A stretch of 36,693 bases of DNA. It comes from Kiritimatiellia bacterium. Its GTDB lineage: Bacteria; Verrucomicrobiota; Kiritimatiellia; B70-G9. The position numbers and the translations under genes were made by a program. The notes below the pieces were generated by a model that was not told the origin of the DNA, ran no database searches, and saw only the letters and a program-made list of their open reading frames with translations. This document shows positions 2,503 through 14,522 of the stretch, piece after piece (position 1 is the stretch's first letter; every line of letters begins with the position of its first letter). Where the stretch lies: contig JAOZMZ010000004.1 in NCBI GenBank assembly GCA_029934055.1, positions 1 to 36,693 on the forward strand, read 5' to 3'.

Positions 2503-3774
2503 ATGAAAGACAAGCTCTCCATCGCCGTCGGCGCCGATCACGGCGGATTCGAACTCAAGCAGGCACTGATCCCCTTTCTGCGCTCCCTGGGACACGAGGT
2601 AAAGGACTGCGGCACTCACGACACCACGCCGGTTGATTATCCGCTCTTCGCCCTGGCGGTGGCCCGGCGCGTGGCCTCCGGCGAATGCGATTTCGGGATC
2701 ATGGTGGACGGTGCCGGCATCGGCTCGGCGATTACGGCGAACAAGGTGCCGGGAATCCGCGCCGCGGCGGTGTACAACGAAAAACTGGCCCTCAACAGCC
2801 GGGAGCATAACGACGCCAACGTATTGACTCTCGGATCGCAGTACATTACTCTTGAGCAAGCCCGGACGGTGGTGAGGGCTTTCCTCACCCACGAGTGCAC
2901 GCTGGAGCGGCACCGCCGCCGGGTGGGGTTGATAGAGGCCATCGAACGCAGTCCGTCGGGGATCCCCGCGGGCGTCGAAGGTGCGGGAGCGGAGAAAGAA
3001 ATGGATCTGGATCCTGAAGACATCGGCCGCATCGCCGAGCGGGTGAAGCAGCTCGTCGGCACGGGATCCGGGGGTGCGCCGGGGGCGCTTCCCTCGCCGG
3101 GCCCGGAAGAAATCGCCAAGATGATCGACCATACCCTTCTCAAGCCGGAGGCCTCCAAGGCAGACATCGAAAAGCTCTGCGATGAAGCCCGGACACACAA
3201 CTTCTACTCGGTCTGCGTCAACCCCGCCTACGTGAGTCTCGCCGCACGCCGCCTGCAGGGGTCCGAGGTCAAGGTCACCTGCGTGGTAGGCTTTCCGCTC
3301 GGGGCCCAGGCGCCCGAGATCAAGGTTCTCGAGGCCCGCAAGGCGTTGCGGGAAGGCGCCCGGGAGATAGACATGGTCATCAATGTCGGCGCGTTGAAAA
3401 GCGGCGATGACGCCCTGGTTTTGCGGGACATACGGGGGGTGGTGGAAGCCTGCATCGAGAGCCGGGCGATCTGCAAAGTGATCCTTGAGACGGCCCTGCT
3501 GACCGACGAAGAAAAGGTACGTGCCTGCCGACTGAGCGTGAAGGCCGGCGCACATTTCGTAAAGACCTCGACGGGATTCGGTCCGGGCGGCGCCACGGAA
3601 GAAGACATTCGGCTGATGAGCCGCGAGGTGGCGCCGAAACTGGGCGTCAAGGCTTCCGGCGGAATACGCAGTTACGACGACGCCGTGCGCATGATCGCGG
3701 CCGGAGCCACGCGCATCGGATCGAGCAGCAGTGTAAAGATAGTCGAAGAAGCACGGGCGCGCACCGGCGGGTGA
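2503..3774 (+). CDS. RpiB-like / deoxyribose-phosphate aldolase (DeoC) fusion enzyme of a microcompartment
   Basis: About 423 residues in three parts. Residues 1-150 are RpiB-like: Asp12-His13 in ADHGG, His102-Asn103 in REHNDAN and the Arg-rich ERHRRRV near 136 are conserved. The E. coli motif CGTGVG, with its catalytic Cys and Thr, reads DGAGIG here (Asp69, Ala71). Residues 167-186 form an amphipathic helix ([16 protein letters not shown]) flanked by Gly/Ala/Pro-rich linkers, typical of an encapsulation peptide. Residues about 200-423 are DeoC, with Asp290 in EIDMVIN, Schiff-base Lys358-equivalent Lys354 in [12 protein letters not shown] and Lys383 in VKASGG. DeoC cleaves 2-deoxyribose 5-phosphate to glyceraldehyde 3-phosphate and acetaldehyde. 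It is the first gene of the shell operon, which suggests cargo. A TTG at 2491 with a better-spaced GAGG is an alternative start. The role of the RpiB half is open. Confidence 0.92.
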
Positions 3775-3826
3775 TGATACCGGTTTCCGGTCGCAGCCGT
3801 TCTTTCCAGAGGAAAGGAGCAGACAA

Positions 3827-4450
3827 GTGGCGGAACTGAGGACCTACGTTTTTCTCGACAGTCTCCAGCCGCAGTTCGCGGCCTTTCTGGGGACCGTCGC
3901 CCAGGGATTTCTGCCTGTGGCCGGGCAGGCCTCGCTCTTTGTGGAGATATCCCCGGGAATCGAAATAAACCGGATAACCGACGTGGCGCTCAAGGCGACC
4001 AACGTGACTCCCGGAATGCAGATCGTCGAACGCCTCTACGGCATGCTCGAGATCCATTCCGATTCCCAGGCCGACGTGCGCCAGGCAGGCGCCGCGATCC
4101 TCCAGGCTCTCGACCTGAAAGAAGAAGACCGCATCAAGCCCAAGGTCTATTCCAGCCAGGTCATCCGGCGCATCGCCGACCACCAGACCCAGCTCATCAA
4201 CCGCATGCGCCACGGCAACATGATCATTCCCGGTCACACCCTTTACGTAATGGAGGTCGCCCCGGCCGGCTATGCGGCCCTGGCGGCCAACGAGGCCGAA
4301 AAGGCGGCCGAAATCAACATTCTCGAGGTACGTACCTTCGGCAGTTTCGGACGGGTTTATCTCGGCGGCGAGGAACGTGATATTGATATCGGCTATCGCG
4401 CCGCGGAAAACGCCATTGCGGCGCTCACCGGGCGCGAACCGAAGAAATGA
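3827..4450 (+). CDS. tandem-domain microcompartment shell protein (BMC-T), copy 1
   Basis: 207 residues with two Pfam00936-like BMC domains (about 34-98 and 136-202) in the standard, non-permuted order. Domain 1 begins [12 protein letters not shown] and domain 2 begins [13 protein letters not shown] roughly 30-residue N-terminal lead ([14 protein letters not shown]) precedes the first domain. BMC-T proteins form trimers that look like hexamers and tile the shell facets, often with a wider pore for larger metabolites or cofactors. The start is GTG, supported by AAAGGAG seven bases upstream. It lies 52 bp after the fusion enzyme and before the BMC-H gene, in one transcription unit. The pore-lining residues cannot be assigned safely by eye. 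Confidence 0.9.
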
Positions 4451-4555
4451 GGTCGCCGCACAGAGCGCTTTCACGCCTGAAAAAAGGATGATTTGGGACC
4501 GGCCCGGAGAGCCGGTGAATGTCGAGAAGGCAAACGAAAGACTGAGAGGTGCAAA

Positions 4556-4852
4556 ATGGCTGAAGCATTAGGAATGATAGAAACCCGCTCGTTTCCGGCG
4601 GTGGTCGAAGCCGCCGACGCCATGGTCAAAGCCGCCAAGGTCGAACTGGTGACCTACGAGAAGACCGGCGGCGGATATACCTCCGTGGTCGTCCGCGGTG
4701 ATGTCGCCGCGGTCAAGGCGGCCTGCGAGGCCGGACAGATCGCCGCCGGCCGCGTCGGCGAAGTGGTCGCCGTCCACGTGATCGCCCGGCCGCACACCAA
4801 CGTGGATGCCGTGCTGCCGCTCGGACGGGCTCCGGAAACGAAAAAGAAATGA
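4556..4852 (+). CDS. hexameric microcompartment shell protein (BMC-H)
   Basis: 98 residues, the usual size for a single-domain BMC-H protein such as PduA or EutM. It opens with the hallmark [21 protein letters not shown] and has the pore-loop pattern KTGGGYTS at residues 36-43, where PduA-like proteins have K-x-G-S-G. Hexamers of this protein should form most of the facet area. It is the only BMC-H gene in the cluster. ATG 4556 fits the family N-terminus exactly and has GAGAGG six bases upstream. The short Lys-rich C-terminus (ETKKK) is unremarkable. Confidence 0.96.
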
Positions 4853-4878
4853 GCGCCTGAGAGAACGGACGGAGCGAT

Positions 4879-5181
4879 ATGAACCTCGGCAAAGTCGTCG
4901 GCACGGTGGTCTCGACGCGCAAGGAGCAAAGCCTCGAGGGGCTTAAACTCCAACTGGTGAAATACGTTGACGAACACGGCAAGGAAACCGGGGCCCAGGT
5001 CGTCGCCGTAGACACCGTCGGCGCCGGCCCCGGAGAAATGGTGCTCGTGGCCTGCGGCAGCTCCGCACGCCAGACGACCGCCACCGACAAACGGCCGTGT
5101 GACGCGGTCATAATGGCCATCGTGGACTCGTGGAACGTCGGCGATCGCACTGTCTACCGCAAGTCGGAAACCGACCGGTAA
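4879..5181 (+). CDS. pentameric vertex protein (BMC-P, EutN/CcmL family), copy 1
   Basis: 100 residues of the EutN/CcmL fold: an N-terminal MNLGKVVGTVVSTRK strand, the GAGPGEMVLVACGSSAR signature in the middle and a C-terminal AIVDSW strand. Such proteins form pentamers that cap the vertices of the icosahedral shell. This copy matches the family best among the three encoded here. It follows BMC-H by 26 bp and precedes the aldehyde dehydrogenase. Confidence 0.95.
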   Translation: MNLGKVVGTVVSTRKEQSLEGLKLQLVKYVDEHGKETGAQVVAVDTVGAGPGEMVLVACGSSARQTTATDKRPCDAVIMAIVDSWNVGDRTVYRKSETDR

Positions 5182-5266
5182 ACCGAGCAGGCGCCTTTTC
5201 GCCGTCCGGAACTGATCTCCGGCGTCCGCGGCGGCCGCATATTTCAGCCAAGAAAGGGGTTTTGCA

Positions 5267-6712
5267 ATGGCCAGACTGAGTGACCGGGAAATCGAAGAAA
5301 TCGCCCGGCGCATCGCCGCCGACATAACCGGGGCGCCGACCAACGCTTCCCCCGGTGCTGCGCCGCCTCCGACTTCGTCTTCCGCCATGTCGGGAATATT
5401 CGCCTCGGTCGACGAAGCTGTGCGTGCCGCATCCGAAGCCCAACCGCGCTTCGCCGCTCTCACCCTCGAAAAACGCGGGGAAATCATAGCTTCCATCCGC
5501 GCCAGGATGCTGGCCGAAGCCACCGCCCTGGCGCGCGCCGCCTACGAGGAGACCGGGCTGGGCCGCTTCGAAGACAAAATAATGAAAAACGAACTGGTCG
5601 CCCGCAAGACGCCCGGGATCGAGGATCTGCATCCGACCGCCTACAGCGGTGATCACGGCCTGACCATCTGCGAGCCGGCGCCCTTCGGCGTGATCGGGGC
5701 CATCACCCCCTGCACCAACCCCACTTCGACCATCATCTGCAACTCGATCGCCATGCTTGCGGCCGGAAACACCGTTGTCTTCAACGTGCATCCCACCGCC
5801 CGTAACTGTTCCAAGCTGACCATTCAGCTCGTCAACCAGGCGGTGACCGCCGCCGGCGGTCCTCCCAACACGGTCACCGGCGTGGAGAACCCCACCATCG
5901 AAAGCGCCCAGCAGCTCATGCGCCATCCGGCGGTGCGCCTTGTGGTGGTCACCGGCGGCGGGGGCGTCGTCAAGGCGGCCATGGAAAGCGGCAAGCGCGC
6001 CATTTGTGCCGGGCCGGGCAACCCGCCGGTCGTCGTCGACGAGACCGCCGACATCGAAAAGGCCGCCCGCGACATCGTGCTCGGAGCCTCGACCGACAAC
6101 AACATCATCTGCGTCGACGAAAAGGAAGTGATCGTCGTCGAATCCGTCGCCGACACACTCTTGCAGGCCATGGCCCGCAACAACGCGGTGATCATCGGCA
6201 AGGATCGCCTGAGTGCGCTCGAAAAGGTGATCTTCACGGAAGTCCACGGGCCGCGCAAACCCGCCACCGTCAACCGCGAACTCATCGGCAAGAACGCCGA
6301 CCTGATCCTCTCGCGCATCGGCTTGAATGTGCCGGCCACGATCCGCCTCGGAATAGTCGAAGTCAATGAAGATCATCCCCTGCTGTGGACCGAACAGATG
6401 ATGCCGATCCTTCCGGTTGTGCGGGTGCCGGACGCCGATTACGCCATCGACCTGGCCGTCAAGGTCGAGGGCGGCAACCGCCATTCGTTCATCATGCACT
6501 CGCGCAATCTCGACAATCTCAGCCGCATGGCCCGCGAGTGCAACGCGAGTATCTTCGTGAAAAACGGACGTTCCCAAGCCGGGCTCGGCTTCGGCGGCGA
6601 GGGCTACTGCTCCTTTACGATCGCCAGCCCCACCGGCGAAGGACTCACCGGTCCGCGGACGTTCTCGCGCAGTCGGCGTTGCGTCCTGGTTGACCATTTC
6701 CGAATCGTGTAA
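5267..6712 (+). CDS. CoA-acylating aldehyde dehydrogenase of the microcompartment (EutE/PduP-like)
   Basis: 481 residues. Residues 4-22 (LSDREIEEIARRIAADI) form an amphipathic helix followed by a Pro/Ser/Ala linker (about 23-42), the layout of a shell-targeting encapsulation peptide in PduP. The catalytic domain starts near residue 43 (SGIFASVDEAV). The cofactor region contains GAITPCTNPTSTIICNS (about 144-160), the nucleophile is Cys282 in NNIICVDEKEV, and the C-terminus RCVLVDHFRIV matches EutE/PduP. The expected reaction is aldehyde + NAD+ + CoA to acyl-CoA + NADH; here the likely substrate is acetaldehyde released by DeoC. AAAGGGG lies seven bases upstream of ATG 5267. The stop overlaps the next ATG by one base, suggesting coupled translation. 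Confidence 0.95.
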   Translation: MARLSDREIEEIARRIAADITGAPTNASPGAAPPPTSSSAMSGIFASVDEAVRAASEAQPRFAALTLEKRGEIIASIRARMLAEATALARAAYEETGLGRFEDKIMKNELVARKTPGIEDLHPTAYSGDHGLTICEPAPFGVIGAITPCTNPTSTIICNSIAMLAAGNTVVFNVHPTARNCSKLTIQLVNQAVTAAGGPPNTVTGVENPTIESAQQLMRHPAVRLVVVTGGGGVVKAAMESGKRAICAGPGNPPVVVDETADIEKAARDIVLGASTDNNIICVDEKEVIVVESVADTLLQAMARNNAVIIGKDRLSALEKVIFTEVHGPRKPATVNRELIGKNADLILSRIGLNVPATIRLGIVEVNEDHPLLWTEQMMPILPVVRVPDADYAIDLAVKVEGGNRHSFIMHSRNLDNLSRMARECNASIFVKNGRSQAGLGFGGEGYCSFTIASPTGEGLTGPRTFSRSRRCVLVDHFRIV

Positions 6713-7341
6713 TGAAGAAGTACCCGGCCATCGCCCTTCTCGAATTCGACGACATCCCGGCTGGGATGACCACCGCCGATGCCATGCTCAAGGAATCACC
6801 CGTGGCGGTCATTCGTACCGGAACCATCGGCGGAGCCGGATTTCTCACCATCCTGGCCGGCACCACGGCGGCCGTGCAGGAAGCGCTGCGCGAAGGGCTT
6901 CTTCTCGCCGGCGAACGCCTGCGCGATCATGCCTTCCTGCCCGACGTTCATCAGGCGCTCTACGACGCGGTCCTCGAAGCGCACCGCAATCCGCCGGGCG
7001 GCGCAATCGGCGTGCTCACCACCTCCACGGTGACCGCAAACGTCCTGGCCCTCGAACGCGCGCTCAAGGGCACTCCGGTAACCCTCGTGGAAGTGCGGCT
7101 CGGAGACCCCGCCCTGGCCGGACAAGCACTCGGCATCGTCAGCGGGGAACTGCGCGACGTACAGGCCGCCATGGAACTCGCACTGGAAGTGATCGCGGCA
7201 CGCGCGGTGAGCGCCTCGCACCGCATCATCACCGCACCACACGAGGCTTTCCTGCGCCAGCTCGGGCAAACCAGCGATATCTTCACCGCCGCGGCGGTGG
7301 AACTCGAAGGAGAAAAACCGGCCACCCCGGTTTCGCAGTAG
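6712..7341 (+). CDS. tandem-domain microcompartment shell protein (BMC-T), copy 2, divergent
   Basis: 209 residues with two BMC-like domains: about 4-70 (PAIALLEFDDIPAGMTTADA) and 97-165 (GAIGVLTTSTVTANVLALER). A helical connector lies between them and a C-terminal tail ends in EKPATPVSQ. It is clearly different from the BMC-T at 3827-4450 and contains no cysteine, so it cannot hold the iron-sulfur cluster known in PduT-type trimers. Trimers should occupy shell facets, possibly with a specific pore. Its ATG overlaps the dehydrogenase stop codon (TAATG), so the two are probably made together. The second domain is divergent, so the family call rests on fold-like pattern and context. Confidence 0.85.
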   Translation: MKKYPAIALLEFDDIPAGMTTADAMLKESPVAVIRTGTIGGAGFLTILAGTTAAVQEALREGLLLAGERLRDHAFLPDVHQALYDAVLEAHRNPPGGAIGVLTTSTVTANVLALERALKGTPVTLVEVRLGDPALAGQALGIVSGELRDVQAAMELALEVIAARAVSASHRIITAPHEAFLRQLGQTSDIFTAAAVELEGEKPATPVSQ

Positions 7342-7351
7342 GACAAGGATC

Positions 7352-7639
7352 ATGAAGCTCGCGGAAGTCATCGGACAAGTCATTCCGGCCCGCGTCTATG
7401 ACGGGCTGGAAAGCGTCCCCATGCTTCTCATCCGTCCCCTGGATGAACACCGCCATCCTGCGGGAAAGACGCTCGTGGCCGCCGACAGCACGCGCATGGC
7501 CGGGCCGGGCGAACTCGTCTACTACGAAGGCGGCCGCGAAGCCGCCCTGGCACTGGACCCATGGTTCGTTCCGGTCGACCACGCCATCGTTGGGATCGTC
7601 GACTCGGTGCACGTGACTTCCGGAGAAGACGCGCCATGA
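7352..7639 (+). CDS. pentameric vertex protein (BMC-P, EutN/CcmL family), copy 2, divergent
   Basis: 95 residues with EutN-like ends (MKLAEVIGQVIPARV and AIVGIVDSV). The centre is altered: the usual GxGxGE..GSSAR stretch reads MAGPGELVYYEGGREAALAL. It starts 10 bp after the second BMC-T gene, with AAGGA upstream, and its TGA overlaps the next ATG as ATGA. It likely forms a distinct pentamer, or a heteromer with the other two copies. Confidence 0.88.
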   Translation: MKLAEVIGQVIPARVYDGLESVPMLLIRPLDEHRHPAGKTLVAADSTRMAGPGELVYYEGGREAALALDPWFVPVDHAIVGIVDSVHVTSGEDAP

Positions 7640-7902
7640 TGATCGGAAAAGTCAGCGGAGAAATATACTCCACCATCAACCATCCTTTCTACGACGGGCG
7701 CAAGCTGCTCATCGTCAGCCTGGAACATCCTGCAGGCGGCTACATCATCGCCGTCGACAGCGTGGGAGCCGGTGTTGGAGAACGCGTGCTGGTGCTCGAT
7801 GAAGGCAATGGCGCCCGGCAGGTGTTCGCCGCCGACAATGCGCCGGTCCGTTCGGCCATAGTCGGCATTATCGATTCCGTGGACGTACCCGGCCGCGACT
7901 GA
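7636..7902 (+). CDS. pentameric vertex protein (BMC-P, EutN/CcmL family), copy 3
   Basis: 88 residues, beginning MMIGKVSGEIYSTINHPF and carrying IAVDSVGAGVGERVLVLD followed by GNGARQVF, a variant of the EutN signature, with a C-terminal SAIVGIIDSVDV strand. The start ATG overlaps the previous stop (ATGA), so it is probably translationally coupled; ATG 7639 is a possible alternative. It is the last gene of the shell operon. Confidence 0.92.
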   Translation: MMIGKVSGEIYSTINHPFYDGRKLLIVSLEHPAGGYIIAVDSVGAGVGERVLVLDEGNGARQVFAADNAPVRSAIVGIIDSVDVPGRD

Positions 7903-13303: not shown

Positions 13304-13313
13304 GCCTCTGACA

Positions 13314-14522
13314 ATGAAAAACAGCCACATCGAAGACAAGGCCTACGAAGCCATCGAATACATACGGGCTCAGGGGCTCCTCGCACCTACCACGATCGTT
13401 TTCGGCAGCCACAAGCTCCGTGAGCTGGGCGAACTGGCGTTGCCCCATGCCCACCGTGGCAAGGCCCTGGTGATATTCGGGGCCAATTCAGCCAGAAAAA
13501 GCGGACTCACTGACCGTGTCGACGCACTTCTGTCACGTTACACGATCAAAATGGTTCCCTGGTTCGGCGTTGTCCGCGAACCGACGGTCCGGATAGTCGA
13601 CGAGGCGGCCGCCCTCGCGCGCCGCGAGAAGGTCGATCTGATAATCGGTATCGGTGGAGGCAGCGTTATCGACTGCGCGAAGGCCGTCGCGGCCCTGGCG
13701 GTCAATGAAGGCTCAGCCGCGGATTATCTCGAAGGCATCGGCAGGGGCCTGAAGATCACTAACCAGCCTCTCCCGATGTTCGCCATCCCGACAACCGCGG
13801 CCACCGGTGCGGAAATGACGAAAAACGCCGTAATCTGTGTGCCGGAAAAGGGTTACAAGAAAAGCATGCGCGACCCCAAACTCGTACCCACGGTCGCCCT
13901 CGTTGATCCCGAACTGTGTCTGAACCTCCCGGCCCATGTCACCGCCAACGGCGGCATGGACGCCCTCACCCACCTTCTGGAATCATGCATCACTACACGT
14001 CGCCGGCCGGAAGTGACCGAGCTGGCACACCGCGCGCTTCGCAACGTCCAACTCGGCCTCTCGGTGGCCTTCGAGGATCCCGGCAACATACTGGCGCGGG
14101 AACGCACCGCTCTGGTAAGCATGCTCGGCGGGGTCTGCCTGGCGAACAGCGGGCTGGCGATGGCCCACGGAATCGCCGCCGCGCTGGGCGCGCTCCACGA
14201 TGTGCCGCATGGGTTGGCCTGTGGAATTCTCCTGCCGCACACACTCCGTTACAACGCTTCCGCCTGCAGCGACGAACTCGCCGGGGCATTGGCGGCGTTT
14301 CTCAACCAGGTCGAGCCACGCGACAATTCGATATCCGACGGCATCGAAGCCGTTGACAACCTCAGGCGCTGGTTACAGATCCCGCCCGACCTGAAGTACC
14401 TGCGTCTCAGTGCCGACGACATACGCACCATCGCCGAACATTCCATGGGCAGCAGCATGTCCGGCAATCCCATACCCATGGACGTCCCGCGCACCATCGA
14501 ATTCCTCGAAACGCTGGTATAG
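13314..14522 (+). CDS. iron-containing alcohol dehydrogenase
   Basis: About 402 residues of the Fe-ADH (group III) family. The NAD(P) loop is IIGIGGGSVIDCAKAV (about 110-125). The metal ligands Asp216 and His220 lie in GGMDALTH, with His285 in AMAHG and His299 in DVPHG, matching FucO. The likely reaction is NAD(P)H-dependent interconversion of an aldehyde and an alcohol; the substrate cannot be read from sequence. Before the usual family start (TTIVFGS) there is an extra N-terminal helix, residues 5-22. ATG 13314 is preferred because a TATAAT box ends ten bases before it; ATG 13302 and GTG 13275 are alternatives. It lies 5.4 kb from the shell operon and could regenerate NAD+ for it, but that link is inferred. 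Confidence 0.9.
   Translation: MKNSHIEDKAYEAIEYIRAQGLLAPTTIVFGSHKLRELGELALPHAHRGKALVIFGANSARKSGLTDRVDALLSRYTIKMVPWFGVVREPTVRIVDEAAALARREKVDLIIGIGGGSVIDCAKAVAALAVNEGSAADYLEGIGRGLKITNQPLPMFAIPTTAATGAEMTKNAVICVPEKGYKKSMRDPKLVPTVALVDPELCLNLPAHVTANGGMDALTHLLESCITTRRRPEVTELAHRALRNVQLGLSVAFEDPGNILARERTALVSMLGGVCLANSGLAMAHGIAAALGALHDVPHGLACGILLPHTLRYNASACSDELAGALAAFLNQVEPRDNSISDGIEAVDNLRRWLQIPPDLKYLRLSADDIRTIAEHSMGSSMSGNPIPMDVPRTIEFLETLV

Follow-up and report, generated by a model that had tools for sequence, protein, structure and literature searches.

Related putative encapsulation peptides on the aldehyde dehydrogenase and inside the RpiB-DeoC fusion of a sugar phosphate utilizing microcompartment operon from a Kiritimatiellia bacterium

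Encapsulation peptides have been described as terminal segments (PMC8217296, PMC12339742). On EutE/PduP-type aldehyde dehydrogenases they take the form of a short amphipathic N-terminal helix and a linker; HO-linked DeoC-type aldolases have an N-terminal extension resembling an encapsulation peptide (PMC8217296); EutC and EutE, two enzymes of one compartment, both carry N-terminal peptides, which are similar and share a binding partner, EutQ (PMC12487888); and the EutD phosphotransacetylase, an acyl-CoA recycler of the PTA_PTB family, has a predicted N-terminal peptide (PMC8547011). Loci for sugar phosphate utilizing (SPU) microcompartments were described in 2014 by Axen (PMC4207490), in a paper that already reports an RpiB-DeoC fusion in Marinimicrobia, and were extended to seven subtypes in 2021 by Sutter (PMC8217296). 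The operon analysed here has in common with those loci DeoC, RpiB, an aldehyde dehydrogenase (AldDh), three BMC-P proteins and BMC-Tdp; the descriptions consulted (PMC4207490, PMC8217296) make no mention of a tag inside the fusion, and a profile search of the genome studied here found no PduL (PF06130). Packaging tags, compartments of the SPU type and fusions of RpiB with DeoC have all been described before, and the tag on AldDh is a typical case of such a tag. The internal position of the tag in the fusion, and a C-terminal tag on the phosphotransacetylase (Pta) of some relatives, look like variants. No report of an internal encapsulation peptide was found in the literature searched.

The SPU-type operon lies on the forward strand at about positions 2503-7902 of the window, by which we mean the whole 36,693-nt stretch of Kiritimatiellia bacterium DNA that was analysed; a tRNA-Val gene on the opposite strand lies just beyond its end. 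It encodes, in order, the RpiB-DeoC fusion, BMC-Tdp, BMC-H, BMC-P, AldDh, BMC-T and two more BMC-P proteins (Table 1), and its six shell genes include the only PF00936 shell matches in the whole genome (2.2 Mb searched, 89% complete). The fusion combines the Pfam domains PF02502 (1.2e-48, residues 7-143) and PF01791 (3.7e-18, residues 206-402), and scores over the cut-off of the NCBIfam model TIGR00126 deoC (5e-86). The locus thus holds what characterizes the SPU type: the pfam01791 aldolase and the pfam02502 isomerase, in one fused gene, beside shell genes, together with a pfam00171 aldehyde dehydrogenase. Among the shell proteins, BMC-Tdp matches the structures of CcmP (5lsr, 2.3e-80), HO (5v76, 7e-76) and CsoS1D (3f56, 1.7e-53), the best natural PDB match of BMC-H is Haliangium HO-5815 (5djb, 1.4e-41), and BMC-T resembles PduT (TIGR02526) but scores below its cut-off. 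The compartment probably breaks down DNA sugars. DeoC would free acetaldehyde from deoxyribose-5-phosphate inside the shell, where AldDh would convert it to acetyl-CoA.

Table 1. Features of the SPU-type operon and of the two putative packaging tags (positions in the window)
Feature	Position	Strand	Basis or remark
RpiB-DeoC fusion, 423 aa (ribose-5-phosphate isomerase B + deoxyribose-phosphate aldolase)	2503..3774	+	ATG at 2503
Variable linker preceding internal tag	2947..3006	+	Free variation in length and sequence, 36 fusions
Putative internal tag, fusion residues 169-185, between RpiB and DeoC	3007..3057	+	Conservation, predicted helix
Variable Gly/Pro/Ala linker after internal tag	3058..3105	+	Linker variation among fusions, low pLDDT
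BMC-Tdp, permuted double-trimer shell protein, CcmP/CsoS1D-like	3827..4450	+	PDB matches
BMC-H, hexamer shell protein, candidate shell-side receptor	4556..4852	+	PF00936, 8.8e-29
BMC-P, pentamer shell protein 1	4879..5181	+	PF03319, 2e-31
AldDh, CoA-acylating aldehyde dehydrogenase, EutE/PduP class	5267..6712	+	PF00171, 9.9e-38
Putative N-terminal tag, AldDh residues 4-20	5276..5326	+	Predicted helix, matrix rank 1
Pro/Ala/Ser-rich linker, tag to AldDh body	5327..5386	+	pLDDT <50 at residues 17-40
BMC-T, trimer shell protein, two BMC domains	6712..7341	+	PF00936, 5.3e-25, two stretches
BMC-P, pentamer shell protein 2	7352..7639	+	PF03319, 3.5e-17
BMC-P, pentamer shell protein 3	7636..7902	+	PF03319, 5e-22

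A preliminary description of this DNA had placed two short tags at residues 4-20 of AldDh (LSDREIEEIARRIAADI, after M-A-R) and residues 170-181 of the fusion, and they lie where it put them. In the internal tag D173 and R180 are at least 90% conserved among 36 aligned fusions, while the surrounding linker cannot be aligned in length or sequence. AlphaFold2 predicts fusion residues 171-186 as an isolated helix between disordered stretches (pLDDT <50 at residues 157-168 and 188-194), and AldDh residues 6-21 as a helix of low pLDDT followed by a disordered linker, the confidence being modest for both helices (about 73/53 for the fusion helix and about 50 for that of AldDh). The hydrophobic moments of the window tags fall in the top 5-6% of shuffles; those of other tags are less clear, and overall the values are marginally above shuffled. 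This form of helix plus linker agrees with encapsulation peptides as the literature describes them (PMC8217296, PMC12339742): a poorly conserved, flexible linker joins a conserved tag to its cargo, and the tagged enzymes are encoded in the same operon as the six shell genes. The AldDh tag is also terminal, whereas the fusion tag is not, and we therefore class the latter as a variant with a probable encapsulation-peptide function. AldDh belongs to the same subfamily as the EutE/PduP-type enzymes; its match to NF011927 (1.1e-197, over cut-off) begins at residue 6, inside the tag, which differs from the known peptides by a dialect of its own.

The preliminary description had assigned both tags one pattern, D-x-[ED]-I-x-x-I-A-x-R-[IV], and called them near-identical. 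AldDh matches the pattern; the fusion does not, because it is one residue longer and reads D-x-x-D-I, and the core truly common to both is [ED]-I-x-x-I-A-x-R-[IV]. Near-identity is an overstatement: the anchored tags agree at 5 of 17 residues and their coding sequences at 22 of 51 bases. Anchored 17-mers were adopted because the unanchored window-to-window test, which we dropped, was dominated by Pro/Gly/Ala linkers. The 17-mers have a layout of hydrophobic residues at positions 1, 6, 9, 13 and 17, a small residue at 10 and Arg at 12, and come in two dialects, LSPxDVxRIAERVKxLL for DeoC and LTDxxIExIARxIxxDL (Ala at position 10) for AldDh; DeoC and AldDh tags differ systematically at positions 8, 14 and 16. 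Using matrices built solely from tags at loci of other phyla, and a background of 542,280 17-mers, we found the window AldDh tag at rank 3 under the DeoC-tag matrix and the window DeoC tag at rank 15 under the AldDh-tag matrix, each being rank 1 under the matrix of its own enzyme. The resemblance is therefore real: it is above chance, a kinship between two dialects rather than near-identity. In profile-HMM searches with the same training sets, the fusion tag was not among the best ~60 matches of the AldDh-tag profile, nor the AldDh tag among those of the fusion-tag profile. As for the spread of the pattern, a six-frame scan of the genome found the core only at the two tags; a third match, EIGVIADSI, is without the Arg. 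The regular expression is not diagnostic by itself: it also matches ClpX, and in relatives it hits roughly one site per genome whether shell genes are present or absent, which rules out the literal pattern as a cargo finder.

The tags follow the shell genes. Every fusion inspected in a shell-positive genome keeps the internal tag, which covers more than 20 fusions of the same class and 15 loci in other phyla. Among 128 genomes of the class, a tag profile trained partly on the same class (threshold E<1e-3) detected a tag in 33 of the 43 shell-positive genomes versus 2 of the 85 shell-negative ones (Fisher 2e-19, uncorrected for phylogeny). All ten shell-positive genomes that lack a tag belong to two families, f5 and f84; those of f5 have tandem BMC-H genes and, where searched, no strong match to the fusion, for which reasons they probably hold another compartment type. 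One of the two shell-negative matches (G415) is a stretch inside an unrelated protein, and the other (G394, 88% complete) is a tagged Pta only, possibly due to contamination or a missing locus. That genome (locus L202) has one complete C-terminally tagged Pta, and the tag sequence occurs once more at a contig start. In a 95%-complete genome in which neither a shell gene nor a close AldDh was found (G047, locus L139), the fusion is retained with its internal tag eroded to LSGDNIQRIANQDKPHV and a short linker left, a single case. Four further shell-less genomes (G115, G053, G215 and G065) have a lone, untagged DeoC. Two side observations concern tag-bearing AldDh genes elsewhere: in G121 (L133/L147) the tag MATLTDQEIELIAQKIVGNL and the AldDh body are in different frames, from a frameshift within the linker that is either real or an assembly error, and in G090 and G104 (L148, L149) the tagged AldDh and BMC-T are on another contig than the fusion and BMC-H, which suggests a split (satellite) locus in their genus.

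Several unfused SPU loci (for example L015, L018, L021 and L036) have the tag at the N-termini of both DeoC and AldDh, and for this reason the internal tag looks like a trapped N-terminal peptide of DeoC. In the simplest history, rpiB would have been joined to the 5' side of a deoC gene that already carried the tag. The fusion of RpiB is also why the tag is internal here, unlike that of the HO-linked aldolases (PMC8217296). The RpiB N-terminus is often tagged too in unfused loci (e.g. PLSDQDIHEIVSRVVRQTLG in L028); separate RpiB proteins with their own N-terminal tag, resembling the AldDh dialect, occur in the Chloroflexi SPU loci L028, L032, L043, L045 and L053.

Several features speak strongly for a role of both segments as shell-packaging tags: their position, hypervariable linkers and conservation, and also the co-occurrence with shell genes and the decay in their absence. 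Judged on what was computed (tag position, conservation, cross-resemblance, shell co-occurrence, erosion in one shell-less relative and the untagged state of shell-less DeoC), both are very probably encapsulation peptides. To the full reading, that they serve one SPU-type compartment and that the fusion's tag is a trapped DeoC peptide serving both enzymes, we give a probability of roughly 85%. An amphipathic helix on a flexible Gly/Ala/Pro linker would recruit each enzyme to the nascent compartment, and the peptide trapped in the fusion would thereby package RpiB and DeoC with one tag. For the internal segment we infer this function, since described encapsulation peptides are terminal. The common pattern includes L-[ST]-x-x-[DE]-[IV], a generic helix N-cap, and the segments might instead be unrelated linker or oligomerization helices without a packaging role that merely follow common helix grammar, an N-cap box and an amphipathic helix. 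The match of the regular expression to ClpX would fit, as would a similar helix, LSADDIRTIAEHS, in an iron-dependent alcohol dehydrogenase, but such helices would hardly rank 3rd and 15th among 542,280 in cross-detection, erode or be absent where shells are missing, or recur at the C-terminus of a third unrelated enzyme, and we regard this explanation as very improbable.

If the segments are encapsulation peptides, what reads them is less certain. The literature offers several docking modes: a groove between PduA tiles (PMC11157265), condensation by the peptides themselves (PMC12339742, PMC7221423) and the EutQ adaptor (PMC12487888). The preliminary description had proposed a common shell-side receptor, and one such receptor is compatible with the data. 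In its specific form, with both tags docking in one hydrophobic groove between tessellating BMC-H/BMC-T tiles, the proposal is a serious candidate to which we give slightly less than even odds; the helix-in-groove step itself is one we infer. Experiments support peptide binding between PduA tiles (PMC11157265), the window BMC-H is close to HO-5815, and over all 35 loci tag pairs from the same locus resemble each other more than shuffled pairs (p~4e-5), a signal at the level of compartment type. Within the fused type, however, same-locus pairs are no closer than shuffled ones (p=0.16; p=0.46 in the window clade), which gives no support there to a lock-and-key coevolution of the tags specific to each locus, and the enzyme-specific dialects, with their differences at positions 8, 14 and 16 and profiles that miss each other, also speak against a single site.

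Helix-helix self-association could alternatively condense the cargo before shell assembly, the resemblance then reflecting mixed bundles and not a shell receptor. Metabolosome peptides do gather cargo into condensates and assemble as trimeric bundles (PMC12339742), and different Pdu peptides co-aggregate cargo (PMC7221423), but these properties are compatible with shell docking too, and self-association alone leaves the recurrence of Ala 10 and Arg 12 unexplained; we consider it unlikely as the main mode. Least probable of the three is a non-shell adaptor reading both peptides: the peptides of EutC and EutE, which are 40% identical, share EutQ as their binding partner (PMC12487888), but the operon is without a candidate adaptor, no EutQ family member was found in this genome, unlike in the Eut system, and ten genomes searched gave one weak partial match. 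These three modes are not mutually exclusive, since an encapsulation peptide can act by any of them. A bolder picture, which we hold to be doubtful, is of a portable tag acting N-terminally (AldDh, RpiB), internally (the fusion) and, on Pta, C-terminally. Its two enzyme-specific dialects, one for DeoC and one shared by AldDh and Pta, would be read by different sites and would order the halves of the pathway in the lumen, and the internal tag would tether two oligomeric enzymes to one site in a 1:1 ratio.

Under the preferred reading, that both segments are encapsulation peptides, further cargo might be sought by the tag, as the preliminary description proposed. The search yielded nothing further in this genome, although it did yield a tagged Pta in relatives. 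Over the genome, the tag profile found the two window tags at ~1e-7, values that are not independent because these tags sit in its training set, and nothing else better than 0.19; the weaker matches were not taken as cargo. A pattern scan of relatives found a phosphotransacetylase (PF01515, 2.6e-111) tagged at the C-terminus, unlike EutD with its N-terminal peptide (PMC8547011): in family f11 a Pro/Ala linker leads to the C-terminal tag ILSDDEIEAIARRVAQDLLASP, and in G148 the linker is short. These loci (L168/L205 of G095, L202, L203, L204, L206, L207, L208, L210 and L225) lie outside the shell operon, and several f11 genomes have a second, more distant Pta besides the tagged one. The other Pta C-termini examined were without a tag, among them that of the window genome's own Pta (contig C31), which is thereby rejected as a third cargo. 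Given that the genome studied here lacks PduL, those relatives, though not this organism, could plausibly recycle coenzyme A with the tagged Pta. The iron-dependent alcohol dehydrogenase mentioned above (about 13311-14522) was rejected as cargo, its N-terminus being typical and untagged; it lies ~5 kb downstream of the operon, and its tag-like helix, near the C-terminus, is a decoy inside the enzyme domain.

The tag profile points to a likely answer, in some relatives, to the question of the missing phosphotransacetylase of these PduL-less compartments. The fusion, if its reading is confirmed, would be a natural example of an encapsulation peptide that can work from mid-protein and of one tag that can load a pair of enzymes in a fixed proportion, a property useful for engineered compartments. 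Nature also offers matched comparisons, since one and the same fusion occurs both together with a shell and a tag and in the absence of the two. Upstream of the operon, positions 1-430 of the window form a repetitive stretch with repeats of CTTTGCG and GTTGATGGTTGAT-like units.
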